In this document: piece by piece, positions 7,073-21,392 of the stretch
Layout of the letters: each line of letters begins with the position of its first letter
Position numbering within the stretch: the first letter of the stretch is position 1
Assembly (NCBI RefSeq): GCF_026616195.1
Contig: NZ_JANHDH010000004.1
Coordinates: forward strand, 124,001 to 188,000
Direction of reading: 5' to 3'
Length of the DNA stretch: 64,000 bases
DNA from: Haloarchaeobius amylolyticus
GTDB lineage: Archaea > Halobacteriota > Halobacteria > Halobacteriales > Natrialbaceae
Notes under the pieces: generated by a model
Told to the model about the DNA's origin: nothing
The model's database searches: none
Seen by the model: the letters and a program-made list of their open reading frames with translations, nothing else
Position numbers and translations under genes: made by a program

Positions 7073-7171
7073 ACTTCAACCCCATAAGGGGTTCATCTGA
7101 AACCGATCCGTCTGCTTGACGATGTTCCCTTCGACACGTCTGCTTCAACCCCACGGGGGCTCATCTGTAAC
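7073..7171. CRISPR. Relict two-repeat CRISPR of haloarchaeal I-B type, one spacer
   Basis: Two related 30-31-nt units (7073-7103 and 7142-7171) share CTTCAACCCCA and TCATCTG(A/T)AAC around a G-rich centre. They are separated by a 38-nt spacer (7104-7141). The sequence resembles the 30-nt repeats of haloarchaeal subtype I-B arrays, which end in GAAAC on one strand and GAAGC on the other, and differs clearly from the 37-nt repeats of the I-D arrays nearby. The two copies have diverged from each other (ATAAGGGGT versus ACGGGGGC), and no I-B cas genes are in the window, so it looks inactive. Confidence 0.6.
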
Positions 7172-7338
7172 CATGGCCGATTCGGCCACTATCAACCCTG
7201 TACAACCTAAATTCAAATGAGCTTTTCCGTCGACCTTCGATAGCCGCTAAAACCGGGGGAGGTCGATGGAAATCCGGTTGGACTTACAAATGTGGACGAA
7301 TTCTCCTCTGACGATACGCAAAAATCAGCCTTGCACAC
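7172..7338. other. Intergenic stretch between relict CRISPR and tfb remnant
   Basis: No gene is supported. A small palindrome (GGCCGATTCGGCC, about 7175-7187) directly follows the second relict repeat. Otherwise nothing is recognised. Confidence 0.4.
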
Positions 7339-7475
7339 CGATTCCACATGCAATTTTTCTCCCCCTGAAGGTTGCGGGAGGTCCCTCAAGAGCGTCCTGC
7401 AGAGCAGTGATTTCGACAATGGCGAGCAGCACATCTACGCGAGTGGCTTCGATGAGACCGAACGACACTGATTAA
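7339..7475 (+). pseudogene. Truncated, frameshifted copy of the 5' end of the tfb gene at 20466
   Basis: Bases 7339-7466 align with 20385-20514 at roughly 85% identity by eye. The alignment includes the T tract, the GC palindrome (copy 3 of the leader element), the leader segment CCTGCAGAGCAGTGATTTCG and the first 16 codons. One base is missing after ATGGCGA (7420-7426), which shifts the frame so that translation ends at TGA/TAA within 19 codons. Homology stops just before CRISPR array 1. It is a direct repeat of the tfb start lying on the other side of the CRISPR-cas locus. Confidence 0.75.
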
Positions 7476-7492: not shown

Positions 7493-8835
7493 GTTACATT
7501 CCATTCGTAGGTTTTCTAGCCGCTTCGACAGTCTGCGAGGTTCTGCCAGCCGTACGTCGTCGGCGTGTTTCAATCCCGTTGTAGGTTTTCTAGCCGCTTC
7601 GACGTGGTTCGCTCACTGGACGCGCTGGATGACGCGGCGTTTCAATCCCGTTGTAAGTTTTCTAGCCGCTTCGACGCGATCCTCGGACTGTCTGTCTGGC
7701 ACTACTCGAGTTTCAATCCCGTTGTAGGTTTTCTAGCCGCTTCGACGAGGGCGTCGAGCAGGGCCGCGAGCAGGAGGTCGTGTTTCAATCCCGTTGTAGG
7801 TTTTCTAGCCGCTTCGACCGCTTCTCTACTCCGCACTCCGAACAGGTCCAGACGTTTCAATCCCGTTGTAGGTTTTCTAGCCGCTTCGACCGGGTTGGCT
7901 GTTCTCCGTTTCTTCTTGGCCGACCCGTTTCAATCCCGTTGTAGGTTTTCTAGCCGCTTCGACGGTGGTGAGGAAGCAGAACCCAGGAAGCGGCCGAAGT
8001 TTCAATCCCGTTGTAGGTTTTCTAGCCGCTTCGACTTCGACCCCGGCGGGTCCCGGTCTTCTATCGCAGAGTTTCAATCCCGTTGTAGGTTTTCTAGCCG
8101 CTTCGACACGGCGACGGCAGCGACGAGACCGGCATCTTCCAGTTGTTTCAATCCCGTTGTAGGTTTTCTAGCCGCTTCGACGATCTCGGCGCTGCACGTC
8201 CGCACTGGCGACGGGTTTCAATCCCGTTGTAGGTTTTCTAGCCGCTTCGACGAGACGACTTTACCCGCTGGTACAAGTACGACCTGTTTCAATCCCGTTG
8301 TAGGTTTTCTAGCCGCTTCGACGTTTGCGCGCCGGCGGGCGCCGACGGCGACGTGTACTGTTTCAATCCCGTTGTAGGTTTTCTAGCCGCTTCGACTACA
8401 TTTCCGGCGAACTCCTCCAAACTGTTGTGCAAGGTTTCAATCCCGTTGTAGGTTTTCTAGCCGCTTCGACGAGGTCCCGTCGTTACTATCGACTGTGGCC
8501 GACGAGTTTCAATCCCGTTGTAGGTTTTCTAGCCGCTTCGACCGTATTTCTTTGATTTTGTCATCCTCCATAAGGCTCGTTTCAATCCCGTTGTAGGTTT
8601 TCTAGCCGCTTCGACAGGCCGAGCGCCTCGACGACCCCGCGGTCCTCCTCCGGTTTCAATCCCGTTGTAGGTTTTCTAGCCGCTTCGACCCAGCAACACC
8701 GACTTTAGACGCCTGTTCATGCTCCGTTTCAATCCCGTTGTAGGTTTTCTAGCCGCTTCGACGACACGGTAGATGACGGCGAACGCGAAAAACATCTTGT
8801 TTCAATCCCGTTGTAGGTTTTCTAGCCGCTTCGAC
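7493..8835 (-). CRISPR. CRISPR array 1, subtype I-D, 19 repeats and 18 spacers
   Basis: Nineteen 37-nt repeats; on the plus strand they begin GTTTCAATCCCGTTGTAGG and end TAGCCGCTTCGAC. Spacers are 33-37 nt. The crRNA strand is the minus strand, giving the usual ATTGAAAC 3' end of the repeat. The repeat at 7493-7529 is degenerate (GTTACATTCCATTCG), marking the leader-distal, oldest end, and the one at 7639-7675 has a single G-to-A change. The leader is at 8836-8943, directly downstream of cas2 on the same strand, so some read-through from the cas operon is possible. Confidence 0.97.
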
Positions 8836-8943
8836 AGGGGGTGTAAATCAGTGGAGAGGGCGCTTAATCCTTTCTCCGTCGTCGAAATGATGGGGCTGCT
8901 TCGTGGACTGGGGTTGTACACAACCGTCTTAAAGGTCCACGAA
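8836..8943 (-). promoter_or_regulatory. Leader of CRISPR array 1
   Basis: Read on the minus strand, the leader carries TTCGTGGAC (8943-8935), 26 nt, then GTCCACGAA (8908-8900), and 64 nt later the first repeat. A TTAA-containing degenerate TATA (8864-8867) lies about 30 nt before the array. The last bases before the repeat are ATTT-N4-CCCCT. The same elements with the same spacings occur in the array 2 leader, although most other positions differ. The inverted repeat is a candidate binding site for Csa3 or for the Cas1-Cas2 adaptation machinery. Confidence 0.75.
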
Positions 8944-8953
8944 GGGCGAATAA

Positions 8954-9232
8954 TCAGATGACGTTGGATTGGTTGTCAGGCGGGGTGTTTCCGAGGTCAG
9001 TGATATCGTCTTGGCATGAGCTACAAATTCGGTATATTCTGATTCGGTCACCGTCTGTTGTTTCGATGTGATTTTCAAGTTCGTCCCTGAGTTTGATGCG
9101 TTCAGTCTTCGAGACCTCAGCTTCGAAAACACTGAACTGCCGCCATGCACCATATCGTTGGAGGGTTTGGTACACTCGTCTTCGGTTTGAGTCGTCATGT
9201 ATATCATAGGTAATTACTATTCGAATCGTCAT
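8954..9232 (-). CDS. cas2: Cas2 adaptation endonuclease-fold protein
   Basis: A 92-residue protein with the ferredoxin-like Cas2 signature: TIRIVITYDIHDDSNRRRVY with the conserved Asp after beta-1, then YGAWRQFSVFEAEVS. It forms the central dimer of the Cas1-Cas2 integrase. Its ATG overlaps the cas1 stop codon by four bases (ATGA). It is the last gene of the cas operon, and the leader of array 1 begins about 10 bp beyond its stop. Confidence 0.95.
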   Translation of the reverse strand: MTIRIVITYDIHDDSNRRRVYQTLQRYGAWRQFSVFEAEVSKTERIKLRDELENHIETTDGDRIRIYRICSSCQDDITDLGNTPPDNQSNVI

Positions 9233-10224
9233 CGATTGACCTCCAGTGCGTGGTACTCGTCCAGTTCGCCCGTGATTCGCTTCCTAAGGAGAATTGCCTG
9301 TTGGCGGATAGCTTTCCGCCGAGACACCTCGTATTTGAAATACGGGTGTGTCAACGTTTCAGTCATGTAGTTGTCGAATTTCTCTAGATATAGTTGGAAG
9401 GTCTCGTCCTTGAGGTGGTTTTCCTGAGTAAAGTCGTCGTGAGTGATGGTACTTCGGTTTACTAACCTGGTCACGAACGTGTCACAGAACAATGGACGGA
9501 ACTCCTCCTGAAGGTCTAACGCAAGCGACGGGCGTCCGTGTCGGTCTGCATGCAACACGCCGAGGAATGGGTCGAGGTTATACTGACGTAGTGCGCTCAA
9601 GACCTCGTTTTTCATCATCACGTAGGTCAACGAGAGCAAACTGTTGATGTGGTCTTCTGGTGGTCGCTTCGTCCGTTTCTCGAACGTCCAACCGCTTGCC
9701 AGTGTATCGTCAAGCAAGGTGAAATATCGCTCTGCGGCCTCACCTTCGACGCCTCGCAGGTCGTCTTTACTGTCAGTCCGGTGCACTTTATTGCCGAGGT
9801 CTTTCAGGAGGTCAGTTCCAGTCACCCCTTTTCGACTTAGAAGCGTCCGAGCGTTTCGAATTTTTGCGCTAATCATCGCTTGAGAGATACTGAGTTCAGC
9901 GGCTTCATCGAGATCGTATTGGGCTCGTCGAACGGTTGCGATGGTGTTTTTCTCTGGGACGAAACTTCCCCTATACTGGCCATTCTGAGTGAAGTAATTG
10001 AGGACGATACCATGTTCATTGGCGCGACGGACGAATGGTGTCGAGAAATTGACCCCACCGAACACGTTCAGCGTGTCGATTTTCTCTGTCGGAAACGTCG
10101 CGATCTCTCCACCGTCACCATCAACGTCGTAGACGACGATACGACCACCATCGGTCTGAACCTGTGTCCCTTGCTTCGTGACATAGACGACCGAATCGTC
10201 GAACATGGCTTCAGCTGCTTTCAT
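9229..10224 (-). CDS. cas1: Cas1 integrase
   Basis: A 331-residue protein with an N-terminal beta domain (MFDDSVVYVTKQGTQVQ) and a C-terminal helical catalytic domain. Metal ligands are visible as the Glu in GVEGEAAERYF, the His in GVLHADRHGRP and the Asp/Glu in LALDLQEEFRPL. It inserts new spacers at the leader end together with Cas2. ATG 10224 (MKAAEAMF) overlaps the cas4 stop by four bases; the longer frame to 10311 is the cas4 overlap. Confidence 0.95.
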   Translation of the reverse strand: MKAAEAMFDDSVVYVTKQGTQVQTDGGRIVVYDVDGDGGEIATFPTEKIDTLNVFGGVNFSTPFVRRANEHGIVLNYFTQNGQYRGSFVPEKNTIATVRRAQYDLDEAAELSISQAMISAKIRNARTLLSRKGVTGTDLLKDLGNKVHRTDSKDDLRGVEGEAAERYFTLLDDTLASGWTFEKRTKRPPEDHINSLLSLTYVMMKNEVLSALRQYNLDPFLGVLHADRHGRPSLALDLQEEFRPLFCDTFVTRLVNRSTITHDDFTQENHLKDETFQLYLEKFDNYMTETLTHPYFKYEVSRRKAIRQQAILLRKRITGELDEYHALEVNR

Positions 10225-10814
10225 AATTCGTCCTCCCAACCGGTCCCTCTGACCTTCTGTGGCTCTAGCTTGATTGTCTCCGCTGGCATACAGTACTCGC
10301 GTGTCGAACACGCCTCACATTTCGCGGGGTTATCTGTGAATGAAGGGACAGTGTCGACAGACATGGATTGCATCGCCTCTACGATGTCACGGACACTGTC
10401 TCGGTGATCGTCAGTAATCGGGATGTGCATACGCTGGTCGGTTTCATACAGGTAAATCGCGCCTTCATCGACTTGCTGATCGATGTGGTCTTCAAGCAGC
10501 ATGCAGTACCCGGCGAGCTGTATTTCGTCGCTCTTGTAGTACTCCCCACTTGCGGCTCGCTTTCTTTCAATTGGAACTGGCGTACTTGTATCTCGTTCTA
10601 GGACATCGATTTTCCCTTTTAGACCGAGGGTTTCGGACTCTAGATATAGCTCGTTGAGCCACCCTCCACGGGTCGATTGAGCGTCGTGGAGGGAAGTTCC
10701 CTCAACTCGCTCATAATTCTGGCCTTGTGTGTCGAAAAAGTGGAGATACCAGTACCGACGAGGGCAATATACGTACTGATTCAGGTCAGAGACGTTCACT
10801 AAGTTGTCCATCAT
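10221..10814 (-). CDS. cas4: Cas4 Fe-S exonuclease
   Basis: A 197-residue protein with one Cys near the N-terminus (YCPRRYWYLHF, Cys17) and three near the C-terminus (KCEACSTREYC, Cys166, 169, 175), the four ligands of the Cas4 iron-sulfur cluster. The RecB-type nuclease core is seen in LKGKIDVLE and VPIERKRA. Cas4 trims prespacers and selects PAM-proximal ends. It overlaps both cas3 and cas1 by four bases, so translation is coupled. Confidence 0.93.
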   Translation of the reverse strand: MMDNLVNVSDLNQYVYCPRRYWYLHFFDTQGQNYERVEGTSLHDAQSTRGGWLNELYLESETLGLKGKIDVLERDTSTPVPIERKRAASGEYYKSDEIQLAGYCMLLEDHIDQQVDEGAIYLYETDQRMHIPITDDHRDSVRDIVEAMQSMSVDTVPSFTDNPAKCEACSTREYCMPAETIKLEPQKVRGTGWEDEL

Positions 10815-12700
10815 TGTGAACGCTCCTCGATTTCAAGCTCTGGTGGGGCATTCGAATGAGTCGTGACTGTGATGTCGTAGTTTGCAGTCGTGATTCTTTC
10901 GGGAACCACCGCGTCAGTGATGCGGATAATACGGAAGAACCGATGAAGGAGATTGGTATCGAGGGGGAATGTATCGTCTAGTTCAAGTCTGTCGATTTCT
11001 CGATGGACTTTTGTCTGGAGGAGGTCTTCAATCTCGGTCGTCGGCTGGTCGTAGCGCGTTGGTTCAGTTTCAAATTCTGGGAGACGAGCGGTGACGACCG
11101 ATTGCGTATCGTCACGAGACTCGAGTACGAGACAGCCCTCATCGTCGACTTCTGCAATGGCGTAGTTTCGAAGAGTCGATGTGAGGTCATAGGTAGTGAG
11201 TCCAAGACGGTCACCACGAGGATACCGGATCTCAGCAGGGAGTGATCGACCTCGGAGTCCACAGAACATCTTGAAACATTCGCGGGTGAACTTGAGAATC
11301 TTCGCTGCATCGCTGTTCTGTGTATACGTCGGGGCGAACCCACCCAAGTTGTCGATGGCAGTGTCGGCTTCGTCGATGAGCCGTCGCCAACGGCCGAAGT
11401 GCTCTATGTTCTCAGCGAAGTCAGCATGGAGTTCTTGGTTGTACCACGTGGCACTTTCGTCGCGTACCGCAATAGCGTAGGCGGCACGGAACCCGACGAG
11501 ATCTGCGAGTTGGTCAAGGTACATCTCGCTGTCGTCCAGTCCCTCGTATATTTGTTGTTCGAAGGTCTGGAACGAGACATCCTCTCCCCACGGTCCCTGT
11601 CCGAGACCATACACGTGAACCGTGGCGGGTGCTTGTCGACCAGCACGACCGAACCGTTGCAGGAAGGCGTTGGCCTCCCTGGGTTTCTCCATGAATAGTG
11701 TTCGGATGTCATAGTCGAGACCGACCTCACCTTTACTCGTCGTATTCAGAATGAAAAACGACTTGTCGGCAAGGGCGCTTACGTCATCATTCGTGTCGAA
11801 CCCGTTGTCTTTCGCCGTGTGTTCGAATATATTAGGATACTCGTCAGCAAGGAACGTATGGAATTGGTTGCTGTCTCTGACGCTATTGAACACGAGGACA
11901 ACCTGTGGCTCAGACAATGTAGCTGCCTTTGAAATTGCTTGTTCGAGCTGATTTGCAACCGCGTGCTTTGTATCGTCATCGGTGAGAATGCGTCTGGCCT
12001 CGTGGCGTTCAACGGTGACCGGGTATCGGAATTGATCGCCAGTCATGGCGTATTCGGCAGCAATCTTTTCCACGTCGATTCCGATTCGGTTATCGATGAA
12101 GTCGATGAACGTCTGGTTTGGAGTTGCAGAGGCTAGCAAAATTTTCGGGTCCGGCAACCGTTCCGAGATTATCTTAATCTGAAGGAGGAGACCGCTGGCT
12201 GCGAGCGGGCCGTAGAAGTGAAACTCGTCGTAGACAATCGCGTCGAATCGATTGAAGAAGTCCATCGCATCGCTCCCGGAGTACATATCCTGGATAATGG
12301 CCTGGAGAATGTCCGGGTTCGTGACGATAACATCGTGATCAGCTTCATATCGATCTACAAACTGAAGCAGATTCGCGGTTCGGTCGTGTGCCCGGCCCTC
12401 AAGCGTGTTACCATTCAGAATAGCGACATCGATGCCAGCAGCATCGAAGCGGTCGTGTTGTTGTCTGAGCAAGGCGTTCGTGGGATAGACCAGCAGTGTG
12501 ATGTCCCGCGTCTCGATGAGTTCATGAAACGTGACGGTCTTTCCCGCTCCGGTCGGTGCGCGAACCGCCGCCACAGGTGCGTCTCCGTGATGCACCCACT
12601 CAACGACTCGGTTCTGGAACGCACGAGCTTCCTCAAAGCCTTGTTCTTTAAGCCCGTACTTGGGGGGTTCAGTTTGAAGGAACGCCTCGCCGACTTGCAT
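10811..12700 (-). CDS. cas3: Cas3 helicase of subtype I-D (no HD domain)
   Basis: A 629-residue SF2 helicase with Walker A APTGAGKT (48-55), DEFH box (158-161), SAT motif (191-193) and a C-terminal helicase core with RFGRAGR. No HD nuclease domain is present at either end, and no separate cas3'' gene exists. This is the subtype I-D arrangement, in which the HD nuclease is carried by Cas10d. Its start overlaps the csc1 stop by one base (TGATG). Confidence 0.93.
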   Translation of the reverse strand: MQVGEAFLQTEPPKYGLKEQGFEEARAFQNRVVEWVHHGDAPVAAVRAPTGAGKTVTFHELIETRDITLLVYPTNALLRQQHDRFDAAGIDVAILNGNTLEGRAHDRTANLLQFVDRYEADHDVIVTNPDILQAIIQDMYSGSDAMDFFNRFDAIVYDEFHFYGPLAASGLLLQIKIISERLPDPKILLASATPNQTFIDFIDNRIGIDVEKIAAEYAMTGDQFRYPVTVERHEARRILTDDDTKHAVANQLEQAISKAATLSEPQVVLVFNSVRDSNQFHTFLADEYPNIFEHTAKDNGFDTNDDVSALADKSFFILNTTSKGEVGLDYDIRTLFMEKPREANAFLQRFGRAGRQAPATVHVYGLGQGPWGEDVSFQTFEQQIYEGLDDSEMYLDQLADLVGFRAAYAIAVRDESATWYNQELHADFAENIEHFGRWRRLIDEADTAIDNLGGFAPTYTQNSDAAKILKFTRECFKMFCGLRGRSLPAEIRYPRGDRLGLTTYDLTSTLRNYAIAEVDDEGCLVLESRDDTQSVVTARLPEFETEPTRYDQPTTEIEDLLQTKVHREIDRLELDDTFPLDTNLLHRFFRIIRITDAVVPERITTANYDITVTTHSNAPPELEIEERSQ

Positions 12701-13407
12701 CAGAGGACCTCCGGAAGGACCCTGTCTCGGACGAACACCGGGTCAGCTCCGACGAAGTGTTGGAGACGCGGATCATTTCCACGTTTGAATCGGTTGCTGT
12801 TAGTCATCAACCCTGTCAGTACATCGTCAGAGAGGTCGTAGACCTCGGCGAGCAGGTACTTGTTCAATACAAGTGTGTCCAAATCAGATTCGACAGATCG
12901 GAACTCACCAGTCTGCTTGATTCCCATCCTGAAGAACGGCCGGGAAGGAAGATCAGTGTCGTCGTGGGCCCAGATTGTGAACTCGAACGTCGAGCCCGGG
13001 GTGAGTCCCAGATAATTTCGAATCGTCTGGTACGCTGCGCCCGAGTCTTCGAGGATGGCTGGCATGGAATCGGTATTGGCGATTCGCCTGGCAAGATCTC
13101 GGTCGTTCGTGGTGAAATGACGCTCGGACCTGAAGTCCGTACTCCTGAACGTCCGTTCGTCAGCGTCGACAGCGACCGGCCGCATGTCGGTCACGAAAAA
13201 CGGTGCGTCCACGAGGTGTGAGTAGTCCGCGGTCGTCGCGTCAGACCCACGTTCAGCATACCGTTTCTCAAGCCCGAAGTACCGATAGCCGAGGGCATGC
13301 ATCAACGCGGTCGCCGACAGCGTCGGCTGTGTTCTGACCGACCGCCCTTCCGTACTCGAATAGAAGAGCGGTGCGTACAGCGTTGCCTCGTACGTCTGTT
13401 CAATCAT
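12700..13407 (-). CDS. csc1: Csc1 (Cas5 of subtype I-D)
   Basis: A 235-residue RAMP-type protein starting MIEQTYEATLYAPLFYSS. An early histidine/tyrosine segment (HALGYRYFGLEKRY) and the N-terminal beta strand pattern fit Csc1. The assignment is supported by position between csc2 and cas3 in a canonical I-D order. It caps the 5' handle side of the crRNA in Cascade. It overlaps csc2 by eight bases. Confidence 0.88.
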   Translation of the reverse strand: MIEQTYEATLYAPLFYSSTEGRSVRTQPTLSATALMHALGYRYFGLEKRYAERGSDATTADYSHLVDAPFFVTDMRPVAVDADERTFRSTDFRSERHFTTNDRDLARRIANTDSMPAILEDSGAAYQTIRNYLGLTPGSTFEFTIWAHDDTDLPSRPFFRMGIKQTGEFRSVESDLDTLVLNKYLLAEVYDLSDDVLTGLMTNSNRFKRGNDPRLQHFVGADPVFVRDRVLPEVL

Positions 13408-14338
13408 CGCCGAACAGATCCTGTGCCTCCTTGGTCAGGTTCGTGAACTCTTCTCGAAGCACCTCGTCTGCGTCTTCGGCCTCACGGCTCGCAACCGCTT
13501 TCAGCCGTTCGTACCACTCGGGGAAGGGTTCTGCGTTGTCGAACTCGCCGTAGACATCCCAGTCTGTACGTTGAACATCCGTGATGTACTCGGCGACTGA
13601 GGTCACGAGTTCCTCGCCCGGATCGTGGTATTCTAGGAGGAGTTCACCCGTCGAGAGCGAGGTGTCATGGTTTCCGAGGATGACACCGAGGACTTCGTTG
13701 CGGATGTTCCGTCCGGTCCGGGTCTCACGCGCACCGTACTTGCCCGTGTTCAAGATGTTATGAAGGACGTACAACAACATCTCTCCAGTCGCAGCTTCGA
13801 GCGTGATGAAGTGCACGAGGTCGTTCCCGGGTTGGACTTTGACGAAGTCGAACAGGGCCTCGGACTGATTTCCTTCGTCGTCTTTCATCGTCCCGGACTC
13901 GTAGACGGCGTTCCGAGTTTCTTTGTTCATCAGATCGTACTCGTTCGTGGTGTAGGTGTAGCCCTCGATGACACGTGATTTTATCGCGAAGTCTTGGTCG
14001 CCAGTTCCAGCGAGGCCGTACGTCAGAGTACCGACATTCAGTGAGCCATCGAGGTCGGTTGGCTCGTTGTAGGCGTATTCTTCATCAACGAACTCGTCGT
14101 CAAGTCCACGCAGCAGGTCCAGGCCCGTGAGGCGTTCCTTGCTGGTGAACTTCTCACCGTTGACCTGTGCGTAGAGGCGGTCGCCGAATTCTTGTGTCTC
14201 TGCACGGTCGTGGTTCGAGTTCCTGAACAGCGTCGGCTCTGTCACATCTCGTCGGACGACCAGAGTAACCGAAGGCTTCCGCTTCCGGTAGATTTCGATC
14301 GATTCAATCAGTCCTTTGTCGGGGTATTCCAGTGTCAT
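13400..14338 (-). CDS. csc2: Csc2 (Cas7 backbone subunit of subtype I-D)
   Basis: A 312-residue protein with the Csc2 signature LNVGTLTYGLAGTGDQ and KSRVIEGYTYTTNEYD, typical of the I-D Cas7 subunit that lines the crRNA. A second conserved region is TGKYGARETRTGRNIRNEV. It starts directly after the cas10d stop and overlaps csc1 by eight bases. Confidence 0.93.
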   Translation of the reverse strand: MTLEYPDKGLIESIEIYRKRKPSVTLVVRRDVTEPTLFRNSNHDRAETQEFGDRLYAQVNGEKFTSKERLTGLDLLRGLDDEFVDEEYAYNEPTDLDGSLNVGTLTYGLAGTGDQDFAIKSRVIEGYTYTTNEYDLMNKETRNAVYESGTMKDDEGNQSEALFDFVKVQPGNDLVHFITLEAATGEMLLYVLHNILNTGKYGARETRTGRNIRNEVLGVILGNHDTSLSTGELLLEYHDPGEELVTSVAEYITDVQRTDWDVYGEFDNAEPFPEWYERLKAVASREAEDADEVLREEFTNLTKEAQDLFGDD

Positions 14339-16750
14339 TTATGAGTCGGTGAGTGTTTGATCGAATGCGTAGTAGTACGAGTTTACGAGCGCGTCTTCCC
14401 AGTCAGATAGCTTCTTCAAGTTGTACAGGTCGTTCTCGATGAGGTACGTCCGAGTTGCTTCAACGAACGCCTGTGCTTGCTCGGGAGTGACCCTGCCAGC
14501 GTAGTCTTCCCGTTGTGCAGTGGCGTAGACCTGACTCTCAACGTAGTCGACGAGTTGCTCGTCTTCCATCTGTTGATTCATTCCGCTGAGAAACGCGTCG
14601 AGTGCCTCGCGGAAGATTTTCGTCTTCTTGTACTTGCTGTCGAATTGTTTGCCGAACAGGTCGACACCTCGCTCGGCGACAGTTCGCATCTCCATGAGTG
14701 CTTCCTGGTGATAGGTTTCGAAATACGACTGCACGACATCGAGCTGCGTCGCGTAGTCGTGGTTGACAACGGCGAAATTCGCGATGCTGTGGAACGTATC
14801 TTGGTCGAGCTGCAGGTACGGATTTGTCATTTTGGCTTCCGCACCAACCATGCTCATGATTTTGAACAACTGGAGTGCACGCCGAAGATGAGACTGTGAA
14901 TCCTCGCCATCGACGAACGACGGCTTCGGCCCGAATCGTTCGGCCACGTCCAGTCCGAGGAGTTCCTGCGGTCGGGTGGCCTCCTCGTCAGCGAAGACCG
15001 CATCCGCGCCGTCGAAGCGCGTGAACGGTCGTCCGATGACCACCTTCATCCCGGATTCTCGGGCTGCCGCCATCACCTGCCGGACCACCTGCATCCGGTG
15101 ATTCTCGTCCATGACGTACACCGGCTGCAAGTAGTACTGCGGTTTGATGAGGCTGACCTGAACGTCGCGGTCGTCCAGTTCATCGCTGTTACCTTGTACG
15201 ATGTTTCCGGTCCGGCGTCGACGAAGACGGATGTCTCCGAGGAACTCGTCAAAGTAAAAGTACGCAACCTCAACGTTATTATTCGTGCTGACATCGCTCT
15301 GGTCGCAGATATCTGCGAACAAGGCGTACTCGAGGTTGCACACCTCGCAGATAGATTTATACTTCGCGTGCGGCGGGACGCGCCGAGAGTACTCTTGAGT
15401 TCTGTAGACGGCGCTCAGGCCCTTTTGATACTTCGTCTCGGTGGGTGCGCCGCAGAGGAAGCACATCTCGTCTTTCCCGGGCAAATCTTCGACAGTGTGA
15501 CTGCCGAAGAATCGGTCTACGACTGCGCTGATAGCATCACTTTCAGGCGTAAGGTCGGCTTCGAGTTCTGGACGGGTTTTTTCACGAAGGTCTTCGAGGA
15601 ACTCGTGATGAGACTCTGCGTTGTTGACGAGGTAGGCGATGAAGTGGAGTTTTACTTTCTGTGGGCCCTGCTCATCTCGAATACGATCGTACTCTTCTTG
15701 GACTGCGTCATCGTCGAACTCGGACCGACCGTCGACGTAAACGGCTTTCGCAAGGACAGGGAAGTATTCGTGGAACGAATCCGGGATATGCTCGAACGCT
15801 TCTACACCCGCTGAACCACGCGAGAGCAATTTTTCGAACGCCTTTGCAATAGTATCTTCTTTCTCCTCGAACGGGAGTTCGATTTCCGCGAGGATGTCGT
15901 AGTCGAACGAATTCCAGTTGAGCTTGCAGCTAAAGTCGAACGAGTTACTGATTTGCTTTGGCAGAGTGTCTGCCACGGCTCCCTCGAGTTGCTCTCGGTC
16001 GATGGAGTCACCGAGGTAGACGATGCTCTCTTGGTCGCTTCCGATGACCAGGCCCGGGTGCTCCATCCCTCGCTCACCGGCGATTGCGGCTTTCGTCGTG
16101 CCGAGCAGAAGGTCGTTGAGGACAGGTTGCTCGACGGCTGTAAACTCTACGAGGTGGACATCATCAGCGTCGAGTTTTCGCTTGAGTTGGTCGTAGACGC
16201 CGTGTACACCATCGCGGAGAGCTATCGACGCGGCTTGGTCTCCGATGCGCGTGTATCGTTCCAGCCCTCTGAACTCGCTCGACGTGCCGCGAGTCTCGGT
16301 GCTGTCTTCCGAAATCTCCGTGTTCTGCACGAGATAGAGAAGATCTTCCCGATAGCCTTCTCCGAGAAATTCCTCGATTCCGAAATCGTCGCCCGACTCG
16401 TCGTCGAGATTCGGTTCGAAGTAGTACTCGAAAGCCTCGTGTGTGTTCCCGTCTGTATCGACGCCATAGGCTTCACGGATGTACTTGTTCGTGTCGTGCA
16501 GCGCAAGTGCGGCCGCGAGCACGCGGATGTCCTCTTCGTAGTCGTCGACAGACTCGTCGTCTCCGACAGCTGTATAGACAAACGTGTTCACGCCGACTGC
16601 AACCGCGTTCAGGATATGTGCTGCCAGGGATGAGTTCGCGGTGCTGTCGACCTTGGCGTCATACTCACCAGCCGCGTCGAGGACGTTCGAATACAATCCA
16701 GAGTCCTCTACCAGCCACCCATGGACACGCTGGACGCCAGAGCGAGCCAT
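14339..16750 (-). CDS. cas10d: Cas10d (Csc3), HD-nuclease-bearing large subunit
   Basis: An 803-residue protein. The N-terminal HD domain shows His45 (AAHILNA) and His85-Asp86 (LALHDTNKY). A zinc-binding centre is formed by Cys430, Cys433, Cys468 and Cys471 (CFLC, CEVC). The C-terminal third is helical. In subtype I-D, Cas10d recognises the PAM and supplies the nuclease that Cas3 lacks. In characterised I-D systems a small subunit, Cas11d, is translated from an internal start near the 3' end. Candidate internal Met codons here are residues 632, 634 and 641 (14857, 14851, 14830), leaving 163-172 residues; no clear Shine-Dalgarno precedes them. Confidence 0.93.
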   Translation of the reverse strand: MARSGVQRVHGWLVEDSGLYSNVLDAAGEYDAKVDSTANSSLAAHILNAVAVGVNTFVYTAVGDDESVDDYEEDIRVLAAALALHDTNKYIREAYGVDTDGNTHEAFEYYFEPNLDDESGDDFGIEEFLGEGYREDLLYLVQNTEISEDSTETRGTSSEFRGLERYTRIGDQAASIALRDGVHGVYDQLKRKLDADDVHLVEFTAVEQPVLNDLLLGTTKAAIAGERGMEHPGLVIGSDQESIVYLGDSIDREQLEGAVADTLPKQISNSFDFSCKLNWNSFDYDILAEIELPFEEKEDTIAKAFEKLLSRGSAGVEAFEHIPDSFHEYFPVLAKAVYVDGRSEFDDDAVQEEYDRIRDEQGPQKVKLHFIAYLVNNAESHHEFLEDLREKTRPELEADLTPESDAISAVVDRFFGSHTVEDLPGKDEMCFLCGAPTETKYQKGLSAVYRTQEYSRRVPPHAKYKSICEVCNLEYALFADICDQSDVSTNNNVEVAYFYFDEFLGDIRLRRRRTGNIVQGNSDELDDRDVQVSLIKPQYYLQPVYVMDENHRMQVVRQVMAAARESGMKVVIGRPFTRFDGADAVFADEEATRPQELLGLDVAERFGPKPSFVDGEDSQSHLRRALQLFKIMSMVGAEAKMTNPYLQLDQDTFHSIANFAVVNHDYATQLDVVQSYFETYHQEALMEMRTVAERGVDLFGKQFDSKYKKTKIFREALDAFLSGMNQQMEDEQLVDYVESQVYATAQREDYAGRVTPEQAQAFVEATRTYLIENDLYNLKKLSDWEDALVNSYYYAFDQTLTDS

Positions 16751-17622
16751 TACTGAATTGCCTCCACAGTGACATCCCCACAGCCACGTGCAACGGCTGA
16801 CCCAACCCCGGAGTACTCAGCAAAGAGGGAGACAGCGGTGACGGCGTTCTGGAGGCTTTCAGAAGCGTCCTTGAACGCATAGGTACAGGTACCGGTGAAT
16901 CCTTGTCGGAAGATCGGGCGCGGGTTATCATCGTCGTCGCTGACCCGGTTTACCAGAACGCTGTGGGTATCGTAGGAGCTGGCGTCGGGTTTTTCGATGA
17001 CTGAGCGAGCGAGTGCGTCGCGGTCGAATTCAAGGTTGAGGTCATCGGGAGCCGTTCGGTTCCACTTTCCGAGTAAACTGCGGAACACAGAGACTCTGTG
17101 AGGGAACATGGTTGTCACAGACCCGGCCTCCTCAATGCATGTCGGGCTCTGAAAATCGAAGGTAAGCCGGGGTTCGTCGAGTGAGCCAGCTTCTTCAAGC
17201 AATTCTGTGTGGTTTGTATTGGAGTTCTCGAACTCGCGGACGTGAAGAGATCCGTTAGTGAGAGAAATCTCGTCATTTTCGAGCACTAAGCCACGAACCA
17301 GAGTTTGGAAAACCCTGGCGTCGCTTGGGTCGGTAACCCCAATCGTGGCTGTGTAGCGGTTGTTCGGGAGGATTGTCTTGTGGTGGGGCCGGTCGCTGTC
17401 GGCGAAGACACCACGAAGGGCGCTGACGTGGAGCGATCCGAGGTCGGAATCGTGGACCTGTTGGCTTACTGTTTCGTCCATAGCGTCGATACTGGAAAGG
17501 ACTGCGCTGTAGAGGCTGTATCCGTCTGAGTTCGGGACAGAGAATCGTGAGTCGGGTGCAAGTTTGATCTGCACCCGGCGGAGGGTAGTGGATTCGTGAC
17601 CAGACTCACTCGATGTCGCCAT
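16750..17622 (-). CDS. cas6: Cas6 crRNA-processing endoribonuclease
   Basis: A 290-residue RAMP protein starting MATSSESGHESTTLRRVQIK. The C-terminal glycine-rich loop SGVGSAVARGCGDVTVE is the Cas6 hallmark, and an N-terminal histidine-containing region (PHHKTILPNNRYTA) may supply catalytic residues. It is the first gene of the cas operon, and its stop overlaps the cas10d ATG by one base. A TATA-like GTTTTACA at 17647-17654 lies about 25-30 bp upstream of the ATG, suggesting a leaderless mRNA. Confidence 0.93.
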   Translation of the reverse strand: MATSSESGHESTTLRRVQIKLAPDSRFSVPNSDGYSLYSAVLSSIDAMDETVSQQVHDSDLGSLHVSALRGVFADSDRPHHKTILPNNRYTATIGVTDPSDARVFQTLVRGLVLENDEISLTNGSLHVREFENSNTNHTELLEEAGSLDEPRLTFDFQSPTCIEEAGSVTTMFPHRVSVFRSLLGKWNRTAPDDLNLEFDRDALARSVIEKPDASSYDTHSVLVNRVSDDDDNPRPIFRQGFTGTCTYAFKDASESLQNAVTAVSLFAEYSGVGSAVARGCGDVTVEAIQ

Positions 17623-17639
17623 GGTACTGGACGCGATGA

Positions 17640-17735
17640 CTAACCGTGTAAAACTTTCCCCTCCGGTGACAACTTTTCAATGTTCTTCCGAGAACACATT
17701 CGATTGCAGGTTAGTGGGACGGTATTACTAAGTCA
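17640..17735. promoter_or_regulatory. Divergent promoters of the cas operon and csa3
   Basis: The 134-bp gap between cas6 and csa3 holds a minus-strand TATA (GTTTTACA, 17654-17647) correctly spaced for a leaderless cas mRNA. It also holds a plus-strand TATTACTAA at 17723-17731, about 26-30 bp before the csa3 ATG. The leader inverted repeat TTCGTGGAC/GTCCACGAA is not found here. Confidence 0.55.
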
Positions 17736-17756
17736 CTGTCGACATCTCAAAACAGC

Positions 17757-18431
17757 ATGAAGAACTTCATTCTCCCTGTTGGACACGACACGCGTCGTGT
17801 TACAAGACCCATCATCTCGCATGGAATAGACGCGCATGACACTGTGGTACTCGTCAGACCCAGCGACGATGATGCGCCCGGGGCAGAGGACTCTCGGTCG
17901 TCCCAGGCAATTGCAGACATCCGGGATTTTCTACGCGAAATTGAACCGAACGCTGCGCTTGAGGTCGAGCATGTCAGCGTTGATACTTGGACTGAGACGA
18001 CACTCGCATGTAGTGATCTCATTCAAGCCGCACGAAACCCGATTCTCGGTCTTTGTGGAGGTCCCAGAGACGTCCTGCTCCCGATGACGGTTGCTGGTGT
18101 CATTCATGCGAATGAACTTGAATTCGCCTATGTGTTCAGTGATCTCAATCAGAGCGTCGACACATGGACGCTCCCAGATCTCTCCCCATCGATTCCAGAA
18201 GTTACGAAGAACACGCTCGGTGCGGTCCACGAACTCGGCCCATGTTCACTGTCAGAGCTCGCTCAGCACACCGACTCTTCAAAAAGTACTATCGGCCGCC
18301 ACCTCGACACCCTCGAAGAGGCCGGTATCATCGACTCCTGGGCCGAAGGAAAACACCGATACGCGTGTGTAAACGAATCTGCACGCGTCTTGGCTTACAG
18401 TGCCCTAGACAACGACTTCGTGGACCTTTAA
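17757..18431 (+). CDS. csa3: Csa3-type CARF-wHTH regulator of CRISPR
   Basis: A 224-residue protein. The N-terminal half is a CARF/Rossmann-like domain (MKNFILPVGHDTRRVTRPI; LGLCGGPRDVLLPMTVAGV). The C-terminal half is a winged helix (LGPCSLSELAQHTDSSKSTI, GRHLDTLEEAGIID, then KHRYACVNESARVL). Csa3 proteins in archaea bind cyclic oligonucleotides and control cas and array transcription. The gene is divergent from the cas operon and points into array 2. Its last five codons plus stop (TTC GTG GAC CTT TAA) are also the distal element of the array 2 leader. Confidence 0.88.
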   Translation: MKNFILPVGHDTRRVTRPIISHGIDAHDTVVLVRPSDDDAPGAEDSRSSQAIADIRDFLREIEPNAALEVEHVSVDTWTETTLACSDLIQAARNPILGLCGGPRDVLLPMTVAGVIHANELEFAYVFSDLNQSVDTWTLPDLSPSIPEVTKNTLGAVHELGPCSLSELAQHTDSSKSTIGRHLDTLEEAGIIDSWAEGKHRYACVNESARVLAYSALDNDFVDL

Positions 18432-18524
18432 GAAGAGAGTGTAGAGTCCCGGTCCACGAATGCGAAGTGAGAAACAACGGTAGCAGAAGAATTTATAGCA
18501 TCGGAGGCGGTATTTCGCACCCCT
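18417..18524 (+). promoter_or_regulatory. Leader of CRISPR array 2, overlapping the csa3 3' end
   Basis: TTCGTGGAC (18417-18425), 26 nt, GTCCACGAA (18452-18460), then 64 nt to the first repeat. TTTATA at 18492-18497 lies 27-32 nt before the array and would start transcription at the array edge. The 64-nt part ends in ATTT-N4-CCCCT as in leader 1. The first 17 bases (TTCGTGGACCTTTAAGA) are identical to leader 1 apart from orientation. Confidence 0.78.
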
Positions 18525-20085
18525 GTCGCGGTAGGGAGAAAACCCAGAACGGGATTGAAACACTTCAACCCGTGGGGGGAGAACTACGCTCGGCGCGGTC
18601 GCGGTAGGGAGAAAACCCAGAACGGGATTGAAACCCCGCAGTGCGGTTGCATGAAGTTCGCCGAACAGCGTCGCGGTAGGGAGAAAACCCAGAACGGGAT
18701 TGAAACGCCATCATCACGGCGGCCGGGGTGCTGTTCCAGTTCGTCGCGGTAGGGAGAAAACCCAGAACGGGATTGAAACACCGCGACCATCGTGACCACC
18801 GCGGCGAGGAACGCGGCGTCGCAGTAGGGAGAAAACCCAGAACGGGATTGAAACTGGTCCTCGCCGCGGGCGGTGATGGTCATCTTTGCGTCGCAGTAGG
18901 GAGAAAACCCAGAACGGGATTGAAACCCATCGGCGTCAGTGAGCCAGTAGCGTTGGACGAGGTCGCAGTAGGGAGAAAACCCAGAACGGGATTGAAACCC
19001 TTCGTCGAGGTCGACGCGCTCCCAGCGCAGCCCGGTCGCAGTAGGGAGAAAACCCAGAACGGGATTGAAACGCTTGCCGGGCGCTTACATTAACGTTGGT
19101 GACGACGTCGCAGTAGGGAGAAAACCCAGAACGGGATTGAAACTTGACCTGTTCGCCGAGTTTGTCCTGCTGCCAGCCGTTGTCGCAGTAGGGAGAAAAC
19201 CCAGAACGGGATTGAAACCAATCCGGCCACGCGAACGCGATTCGGAACTTGACTGTCGCAGTAGGGAGAAAACCCAGAACGGGATTGAAACACGATGAGT
19301 CGGTATCGCTGGTCTTCGTGAAGCTGTCGCAGTAGGGAGAAAACCCAGAACGGGATTGAAACATGGCGTCACTCATGACGTTCAGCCCGATCTCGACGTC
19401 GCAGTAGGGAGAAAACCCAGAACGGGATTGAAACCTGGCTGCTGGCATCGCTGGCGTCGTCGCGCTGTGGTCGCAGTAGGGAGAAAACCCAGAACGGGAT
19501 TGAAACACCTCAACGTCGCGGGGGCCGGGCGTGTCGACGGTCGCAGTAGGGAGAAAACCCAGAACGGGATTGAAACTCCTCGCCCTCGCCGCCGATGGCG
19601 ATGAACGCGTCGTCGCAGTAGGGAGAAAACCCAGAACGGGATTGAAACTCGCCGTCGAGCACGTCGAGGTAGGTCCACTCGATGTCGCAGTAGGGAGAAA
19701 ACCCAGAACGGGATTGAAACAGTGCGTCGGTCTCGGACGGGCAGGGGAACAGTGTGGTCGCAGTAGGGAGAAAACCCAGAACGGGATTGAAACACGCTCC
19801 TCGTCGGGGGCGTCGTCGGGCTCGTCGGCGTCGCAGTAGGGAGAAAACCCAGAACGGGATTGAAACAAGGCCGACGATAGATTGCTCGAGTATTTGGATT
19901 CGTCGCAGTAGGGAGAAAACCCAGAACGGGATTGAAACGTCGCCGATGACTGACATCGACGGCAGCCCGCGCCCGTCGCAGTAGGGAGAAAACCCAGAAC
20001 GGGATTGAAACGTTCGCCCGGTTCCGTCGAGGGCATCGGCGACGTCGGGTCGCAGTAGGGAGAAAACCCAGAACGGGATTGAAAC
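18525..20085 (+). CRISPR. CRISPR array 2, subtype I-D, 22 repeats and 21 spacers
   Basis: Twenty-two 37-nt repeats beginning GTCGC(A/G)GTAGGGAG and ending AGAACGGGATTGAAAC on the plus strand, with spacers of 33-38 nt. In crRNA orientation the repeat matches the array 1 repeat at 30 of 37 positions, including both ends. The four leader-proximal repeats (18525, 18598, 18670, 18743) have G at position 6 and the other eighteen have A. This is expected if the repeat next to the leader is the template for new ones. The last repeat shows no decay. Confidence 0.97.
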
Positions 20086-20406
20086 GCTATCCACGGATAC
20101 GCTGTGATGTAGTTCCAGCTATGCCAGTAAGTACAATATTCTGACCCTGAGAGCAGGTCTGAAATGGTAGAATTCTCCACCTGACCCATCCAACAATACC
20201 GAGTACGACAGCGACTACTTCCTCTACTTCGATATCACGGCTGGAAGTATTTCAGCCGACGCCATTTTGGCAAATCGGAACAGAAAAGCTAGTTAATCGC
20301 AAGACATCATCCCTCGATGCCAACCAACGAGATAGCAACCGTAATTTCGGGATAGGTTATCGACGATGTATACGTGATAGTCCTCGATTCCACACAGCAT
20401 TTTTTC
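20086..20406. other. Intergenic stretch between array 2 and tfb
   Basis: No complete gene is visible. An open plus-strand stretch (about 20188-20296) reads NNTEYDSDYFLYFDI and ends at a TAG. It could be a tail remnant of a lost gene, but no family is recognised. Homology to the tfb remnant upstream of array 1 begins at 20385. Confidence 0.4.
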
Positions 20407-20427
20407 GCCCCCTGAAGGGTGCGGGGC
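20407..20427 (+). promoter_or_regulatory. GC palindrome after a T-rich tract, copy 4 (tfb leader)
   Basis: A T6 tract is followed by GCCCC, a loop with GAAGGGTGC and GGGGC, 39 bp before the tfb ATG. It is nearly identical to the copy inside the tfb remnant at 7362-7385. Confidence 0.5.
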
Positions 20428-20465
20428 GTTCCTCGAGAGCGCCCTGCAGAGCAGTGATTTCGACA

Positions 20466-21392
20466 ATGGCGACCAGACACATCTACGCGAGTGGTTTCGA
20501 CGAGTCCGAACGACTTCCGATCGACCTGCCGTGCCCCGAGTGCAACGGCGACCTCGAACGAGAACAGAGACAAACCTACTGTACGGAGTGCGGGCTCGTG
20601 GTTCGGGAGTACGAGATCGACCACGGTCCAGACTGGTTCGATGGGCAGAGCCAGAAATCGAACAGGCACGTCGGCTCACCACTGACCCCGTCCAGACACG
20701 ACAAAGGGCTCTCGTCCGAAATCGCCGAACGGCGAGATGCGAAGGGAAATCGACTCACTGGACGCACCAGGCGACGATTCAGCAGGCTCAGACGCCATCA
20801 CAGTCAGGCTCGGCAGCCAACGAAGCGGTCACGGAACAGACTCAGAGGGCTCGTCGATGTGCGACGAATCACGAGCACCCTCGAGCTCCCGGCGAGCGTC
20901 CGCGACCGGGCAGCGTCCCTGTTCCGAGAGTCGCAGTCCCGAGGGCTCCTGCCAGGCCGCTCAGTCCATTCCTTCACCGCAGCGAGTGTATACGCCGCAT
21001 GTCGGTGCTTCGACCTGCCACGGACGCTGCAGGAGGTCGAGAGCGTCGCCCGGTGTGATCGCTCCGCCCTCCGAAACGCCTACCGCGTCATGAACATCGA
21101 GCTGGGACTAGAAGTGACGCCTCCCTCACCCAGTGCGTTCATCCCGAAGTTAGCCTCCAGATTCGCCGTTTCGAGTTCAACCCGTCACCAGGCAGTTCAA
21201 TTCGCACAGGAACTCGAGTCCGCGGGGAAAGCGATTGGAAAGCAACCTGTCGGAGTAGCCGCTGCCTGCCTCTACGAAGCTAGCCAGCAGACTGGAGAGA
21301 GGCTTGTGCAGACAGAGCTCGCGGACGAAGCCGGTGTGTCAGCGCCGACGATTCGAAAGCGACGAGACGAAATACGTAGCCTCGAAGAGTAA
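20466..21392 (+). CDS. TFB-type transcription initiation factor
   Basis: A 308-residue protein with an N-terminal zinc ribbon (Cys23, Cys26, Cys39, Cys42: CPEC, CTEC), a linker rich in basic residues, and two cyclin-like repeats (around SVHSFTAASVYAACRCF and GVAAACLYEASQQ) with terminal TFB-type helices (ADEAGVSAPTIRKR). Haloarchaea have several TFB paralogues; this one is divergent and lies next to CRISPR array 2. ATG 20466 is preferred because the same ATG and leader are conserved in the truncated copy at 7420. Specific promoters served by it are unknown. Confidence 0.9.
   Translation: MATRHIYASGFDESERLPIDLPCPECNGDLEREQRQTYCTECGLVVREYEIDHGPDWFDGQSQKSNRHVGSPLTPSRHDKGLSSEIAERRDAKGNRLTGRTRRRFSRLRRHHSQARQPTKRSRNRLRGLVDVRRITSTLELPASVRDRAASLFRESQSRGLLPGRSVHSFTAASVYAACRCFDLPRTLQEVESVARCDRSALRNAYRVMNIELGLEVTPPSPSAFIPKLASRFAVSSSTRHQAVQFAQELESAGKAIGKQPVGVAAACLYEASQQTGERLVQTELADEAGVSAPTIRKRRDEIRSLEE

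Follow-up and report, generated by a model that had tools for sequence, protein, structure and literature searches.

The window analysed here is a 64,000-nt stretch of Haloarchaeobius amylolyticus (contig NZ_JANHDH010000004.1, positions 124,001 to 188,000) that carries a type I-D CRISPR (clustered regularly interspaced short palindromic repeats) locus. Its cas genes, which run from cas6 to cas2 on the minus strand with csa3 on the plus strand, are bracketed by two I-D arrays whose leaders begin directly past cas2 and csa3. Each leader contains an inverted repeat of two half-sites, or arms, at a set distance from the first CRISPR repeat, and this element is the subject of our analysis. The arrays and leader parts of the I-D locus, and those of a third leader of type I-B, are as follows (window coordinates).

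7493–8835, minus strand: I-D CRISPR array 1, 19 repeats of 37 nt
18525–20085, plus strand: I-D CRISPR array 2, 22 repeats of 37 nt
8935–8943, minus strand: leader 1 (I-D), distal half-site TTCGTGGAC
8909–8934, minus strand: leader 1, interior, with CTTTAAGA (TATA-like), a GTGTACA core and CCCC
8900–8908, minus strand: leader 1, repeat-proximal half-site GTCCACGAA
8836–8899, minus strand: leader 1, 64-nt stretch to the first repeat, with promoter-like AGAAA..TTAA at −40 to −29 and terminal ACCCCCT
18417–18425, plus strand: leader 2 (I-D), distal half-site TTCGTGGAC, overlapping the last csa3 codons
18426–18451, plus strand: leader 2, interior
18452–18460, plus strand: leader 2, repeat-proximal half-site GTCCACGAA
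18461–18524, plus strand: leader 2, 64-nt stretch to the first repeat, with a promoter-like element and terminal ACCCCT
7226–7270, minus strand: I-B leader, inverted repeat TCCATCGAC-N27-GTCGACGGA
7172–7225, minus strand: I-B leader, 54-nt stretch from the right half-site to the first I-B repeat
7142–7171, minus strand: orphan I-B mini-array, repeat 1
7074–7103, minus strand: orphan I-B mini-array, repeat 2 (degenerate)

The combination TTCGTGGAC-N26-GTCCACGAA occurs twice in the window, at 8900–8943 and 18417–18460, and in none of 100 dinucleotide shuffles. In each I-D leader the right arm lies 64 nt from the first repeat (8836–8899; 18461–18524), and both leaders end in ATTT-N4-CCCCT. The coordinates bear out these features as described in an earlier, sequence-only reading of the window. 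That reading also held the intervening sequence to be largely different, which is correct for the part of the 64-nt stretch between right arm and promoter-like element (mainly its first half), where alone the two leaders are truly unrelated, but not inside the inverted repeat, where they agree (CTTTAAGA..GTGTA..CCC in leader orientation). The third leader (7172–7270), of type I-B, contains a like inverted repeat 54 nt before its first repeat. It belongs to an orphan I-B mini-array (7074–7270, minus strand) with two repeats, one 38-nt spacer and a complete leader; a Cas1 search of the source genome, at the cut-off applied, gave the I-D cas1 and none of type I-B. Across the 4.6-Mb genome, the pattern TYCRTSGACCN{23,26}GTCSAYGRA matches these three leaders only.

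We searched 391 Halobacteria genomes with the window Cas1 and took 40 loci whose Cas1 falls in or near the I-D clade, regardless of leader, plus 8 stretches obtained via the exact motif; loci L089–L096, L118–L121, L132 and L133 were chosen through a motif match. At a criterion of at least 15 of 18 consensus arm positions, 68 of 76 scored I-D leader rows had both arms, 66 of them at 64 nt, so that the motif and spacing which the sequence-only reading proposed to look for in other haloarchaeal I-D leaders were indeed recovered; the other 2 were at 65 nt, one through a misplaced repeat boundary. Left out of the 76 rows were L062+ (N bases) and L082 +/− (duplicates of L081), while L067 has the inverted repeat in both leaders but arrays that read N, and hence no distance. 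The 8 failing rows were the second piece of L062+, L080, L086, L087 (three), L091 and the second array of L094. In L080 and L091 the array had been wrongly set by the finder and the inverted repeat is actually present; true absences are L086 and L087, whose Cas1 proteins are 51% and 45% identical to that of the window. In L005, L091 and L126, where the finder missed or wrongly set the array, a repeat or relic repeat sits 64 nt on. The gap between the arms was 26 nt in 65 of the 68 rows, 27 in 2 and 25 in 1; the three variants, all orphan arrays, still have the right arm at 64 nt. Genomes of one genus hold several orphan arrays or single relic repeats (L005, L014, L089–L096, L126), and in most of these the element lies upstream at exactly 64 nt.

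From 61 distinct I-D leaders we derived a consensus comprising TWCRTSGACC (−108 to −99), TATA-like TTTWTNAA (−98 to −91), STGTACAG (−86 to −79), GTCSAYGAA (−73 to −65), a promoter-like pair AGAAA (−40 to −36) and TTAT (−32 to −29), and ACCCCCT (−7 to −1). Mean pairwise identity at −64 to −51 is 0.29, about the level of chance, with the length unchanged. On the other side of the element, the left arm begins 2–31 nt from the cas2 stop (36 loci) and −15 to 63 nt from the csa3 stop (28 loci). Since this side varies while −64 to −51 keeps its length without its sequence, length is constrained on the repeat side alone. Judged from the Cas1 search and the leader scoring, about 30 genera carry the I-D element, and because the distance is fixed across them and the sequence is not, something measures position from the integration site. 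The sequence-only reading drew this conclusion from two leaders; it gains support from the wider set, in which a fixed distance to the leader-repeat junction, as expected of a docking motif, recurs in many leaders.

The element is not a speciality of type I-D, which the sequence-only reading did not foresee. The relaxed pattern occurs in 115 of the 391 Halobacteria genomes (reversed control in 3), and a second class of its matches, near I-B cas1, consists of I-B leaders. Their arms read TYCRTCGACC .. GGTCGAYRRA. Of 50 distinct leaders, 49 place the right arm 54 nt before the repeat and one places it 55 nt before; 6 of the 50 were obtained via the motif and the others via Cas1, and the left arm is weak (at most 7 of 9 positions) in 8. 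The I-B interiors are GC-rich and lack a TATA-like box, with arms and distance retained. Left out of the 50 were one duplicate (L162) and nine loci whose array could not be oriented cleanly (L107, L124, L141, L143, L144, L145, L146, L152, L176); on re-reading, L146, L152 and L176 had the site at 54 nt and L141 at 57 nt, and L144 and L124 contained the inverted repeat. Among 29 further I-B starts, found by similarity to one Haloferax leader, 21 had the site at 54 nt and 1 at 53, 6 carried GGTTGACGGA or a near variant (one- or two-base change) in the same place, and 1 was not a leader. The I-B element is present in both arrays of Haloferax alexandrinus, in Haloarcula hispanica pHH126 and, with a weak left arm, in Haloferax mediterranei pHME505. 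Roughly one helical turn separates 54 from 64, so the site would face the same way in I-B and I-D leaders.

Loci L097–L108, of type I-B, were meant as a negative control and turned out positive, so that the remaining controls are the shuffles, the reversed patterns, 311 out-of-class genomes and 14 other leaders. Outside Halobacteria, the pattern matches 4 of 311 genomes of the phylum, all of one genus and coding-like. Many off-leader matches within the class likewise resemble, by eye, coding sequence common to genomes, and no CRISPR repeat was seen at the pattern matches L008, L011 and L122.

Half-sites of the form TCGACARA were noticed by eye in I-B leaders of Lactobacillus, Listeria and Acetoanaerobium. 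With I-B Cas1 of bacteria and archaea as queries, a scan of species genomes gave 80 loci, to which four plasmid-collection records were added; 20 of the 84 loci had no usable array, and 66 bacterial I-B leaders were scored, counting L211, L213 and L220, which prompted the search or were read beforehand. Pairs TYYGTCGAY..RTCGACRRA (at least 8 of 9 positions per arm) were spaced 35 bp start to start in 29 of 66 leaders, and 16, 34 and 41 bp once each, while 100 shuffled leader sets, which preserve base composition only, gave at most 1 pair at any spacing. Because the leaders are related to one another, their counts cannot be taken as independent events. The corresponding spacing is 35 bp in haloarchaeal I-D and 35–36 bp in haloarchaeal I-B leaders. 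In 37 of 66 bacterial leaders, one RTCGACRRA begins at −54 or −55. In the typical arrangement, this copy is a third half-site close to the repeat, and the pair lies near −177/−142. Certain short leaders carry nothing but the pair, with the right arm at about −64 or −74 (several are weak matches), near the haloarchaeal I-B (−63) and I-D (−73) positions. Both half-site and spacing are present in I-B leaders of Bacillota and Spirochaetota. Arms specific to type I-D are thereby rejected, as they occur in haloarchaeal and bacterial I-B leaders alike.

The genes between the two I-D arrays are the following.

8954–9232, minus strand: cas2 (PF09827)
9229–10311, minus strand: cas1, I-D clade (PF01867)
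10221–10814, minus strand: cas4 (PF01930)
10811–12700, minus strand: helicase cas3 (DEAD; the Cas3-like C-terminus scored under cut-off)
12700–13407, minus strand: probable csc1, assigned by position only; gene order matches the annotated Halorubrum lacusprofundi locus, and a Pfam search of the product gave no match
13400–14338, minus strand: csc2 (PF18320), marker of the I-D type
14339–16750, minus strand: probable cas10d, assigned by position only; gene order matches the same annotated locus, and a Pfam search of the product gave no match
16750–17622, minus strand: cas6 (PF10040)
17757–18431, plus strand: csa3 (CARF plus winged helix-turn-helix; PF22662)

The inverted repeat accompanies Cas1, Cas2, Cas4, Cas6 and Csa3 although many loci have effectors without detectable similarity. 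It thus follows the adaptation genes and not the effector type, with exceptions where Cas1 is distant. In about half of L049–L088, which share one Cas1 clade, cas10d and csc1 have no detectable similarity to those of the window (one such locus is annotated I-D); two effector lineages share one adaptation module and leader.

We lean towards the reading that the inverted repeat is the leader docking site for Cas1-Cas2, probably with Cas4, in a group of I-B and I-D systems. Integrase docking is the most likely function because the adaptation proteins are what haloarchaeal I-B, haloarchaeal I-D and bacterial I-B systems have in common, and because there is a precedent in the type I-F Cas2; of the candidates named in the sequence-only reading, Cas1-Cas2 remains, joined by Cas4, as the probable common denominator. 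In the proposed mechanism, each of the two symmetric halves of the complex would grip one of two inward-facing half-sites (about RTCGACRRA), whose starts are 35–36 bp apart. The half-site nearer the repeat lies at a fixed distance from the leader-repeat junction (54 bp in I-B leaders and 64 bp in I-D leaders of haloarchaea), and bending or wrapping of the leader would place the catalytic Cas1 on the junction. The identity of the protein, the bend and the effect on integration are what we infer from the site, its spacing, its fixed distance and its distribution. Covariation of positions −107 and −66, complementary in 57 of 61 leaders against 45.5 expected, supports the symmetric arrangement. 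Given the exact distance in haloarchaea and a similar mark in many bacteria, the insertion machinery probably uses the mark to find its place. We suggest more tentatively that a single two-armed mark, with half-sites 35 bp apart, is common to many bacterial I-B and haloarchaeal I-B and I-D integrases, and that it permits a symmetric grip on the leader, free of integration host factor (IHF), at positions one turn apart (54 or 64 bp).

Several observations weigh against integrase docking. Cas1 proteins of haloarchaeal I-B and I-D systems are only about 30–35% identical, so that it is not obvious that both would have kept a single recognition surface, and docking of Cas1-Cas2 on the arms is itself a prediction. 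In most bacterial leaders, fixed placement near the repeat belongs to the third half-site, whereas the pair stands farther upstream at several distances. The L086 and L087 leaders retain the TATA-like box and a TGTACAG-like core without arms, and Salinibacter ruber has a variant pair, TCGTCRCCC..GGGTGACGA, 76–77 nt from the repeat. Finally, RTCGACRRA occurs in 0 of 14 leaders of 12 loci outside the set (Thermus, Arcobacter and Sulfurospirillum, I-B by annotation; cyanobacterial I-D; one Chloroflexota I-D; one I-C; Rhodothermus), including the six cyanobacterial loci with a cas1d-type Cas1 and the one Chloroflexota locus. Absent from several I-B, the cyanobacterial I-D and the L086 and L087 leaders, the element is not general to type I-B or I-D.

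The arms might instead bind a host-encoded DNA-bending or architectural protein, a haloarchaeal stand-in for IHF that folds the leader for Cas1-Cas2. One host factor would explain arms common to two subtypes within one class, and specific integration in Sulfolobus solfataricus requires host factors, as reported in the part of that study cited here (PMC5815122). This candidate of the sequence-only reading is weakened by the Bacillota and Spirochaetota I-B leaders, which share half-site and spacing yet should not share such a protein and with which a host factor is hard to reconcile, and by the same-class leaders L086 and L087 that lack arms; we regard it as rather unlikely. We consider it unlikely, too, that the arms form an operator for a regulator of the precursor CRISPR RNA or of an upstream promoter. 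They do bracket the TATA-like TTTWTAA at −98 to −91, with AGAAA..TTAT at −40 to −29 downstream; however, the GC-rich I-B interiors keep arms and distance without a TATA-like box, and promoter regulation needs no fixed distance to the repeat. An RNA hairpin or terminator at the 3′ end of the cas2 and csa3 transcripts would account for the complementary arms and for leaders that start right past both genes. It is exceedingly improbable, since −103 and −70 pair in just 33 of 61 leaders (16 C-C, 7 G-G) and a hairpin would work at any distance from the repeat. We rejected it on compensatory pairing, with one pair significant and −103/−70 unpaired in 28 of 61.

Csa3, our initial favourite, would bind the arms and regulate both array and integration, much as Csa3a of Sulfolobus islandicus, in the part of the report cited here, binds a leader-distal motif, contacts Cas1 and promotes adaptation (PMC9456107). 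Its gene adjoins leader 2 in the window and has a match in 37 of 41 I-D loci (the window and L049–L088). The site is nevertheless not confined to genomes with csa3: of 17 genomes without I-D cas1, one matches Csa3_N above the cut-off, five match below it and 11 not at all, and 10 of these 11 have I-B leaders with the inverted repeat, the eleventh (G052) having a pattern match only. Bacterial I-B leaders also carry the proposed half-site, and in Halorubrum lacusprofundi csa3 looks broken beside an insertion element with the inverted repeat intact. We therefore dropped Csa3, the third candidate of the sequence-only reading, as the protein that measures position, and hold this role to be quite improbable.

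On Halorubrum lacusprofundi pHLAC01 (L051, L209), csa3 appears cut to 138 aa and adjoins an ISHla10 transposase gene, and an array there has 76–79 repeats; this csa3 is possibly a natural knock-out. The protein evolves fast (22–39% identity to that of the window), and the window Csa3 and 35 aligned relatives largely keep GGxR in the CARF domain, whose pocket is presumed to accept cyclic oligoadenylate, and SxST..RH in the winged helix-turn-helix. In the window, the end of csa3 (FVDL, stop) falls within the leader 2 element at 18417–18431, where it supplies the left arm and the bases that follow. Promoter-like AGAAA..TTAW lies at 8863–8875 and 18485–18497, −40 to −28 of the I-D leaders. Transcription as a rule starts about 26 nt past such an element, and a start at that distance would coincide with the leader-repeat junction. 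The 5′ part and upstream stretch of a TFB gene (20454–21392) are duplicated at 7350–7466 and 20397–20514, about 90% identical and on the far sides of both arrays, so that the I-D locus lies between two copies; the duplication is possibly a trace of the route by which the locus was inserted.

Haloarchaea are not known to have IHF. The element bears on how CRISPR integrases locate the leader in IHF-free cells, and it offers an exact, mutable DNA target in tractable haloarchaea, namely Haloarcula hispanica and Haloferax alexandrinus, the latter next to the model H. volcanii. Locus C of H. volcanii is reported to take up no spacers (PMC7521656). If the docking model is true, 5-bp shifts should be more harmful than 10-bp shifts. 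The element also serves as a marker of true leaders, array orientation and relic arrays.

In the literature surveyed, which left out one leader-motif catalogue, we met no earlier account of the element in haloarchaea. Its bacterial form is probably represented by the two conserved inverted-repeat motifs upstream of every array of Clostridioides difficile 630 (I-B), an account that concerns one species and, in the part cited here, gives no distance and no archaeal or I-D link (PMC8406132). The Csa3a motif of the Sulfolobus islandicus I-A system is likewise leader-distal and, in the part of the report cited, needed there for efficient acquisition (PMC9456107), but it is read by Csa3a, whereas the present element also occurs without csa3. 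The I-E integrase anchoring site and leader motifs I–III of cyanobacterial I-D systems are alike in lying upstream in the leader, the distance to the integrase being thought, in the part of the work cited, to be bridged by DNA bending (PMC10212523); the cyanobacterial I-D leader differs in its length of 202–220 bp and in having no RTCGACRRA in the loci examined. Type I-F integration works with IHF, and its leader motifs have a sequence of their own, in contrast to the I-B and I-D element with its half-site RTCGACRRA. They resemble it as phased inverted repeats of the leader that, in the part of the Pseudomonas aeruginosa Cas1-2/3 report cited here, are contacted by the integrase (Cas2 R55 and N56) during integration (PMC12259127).

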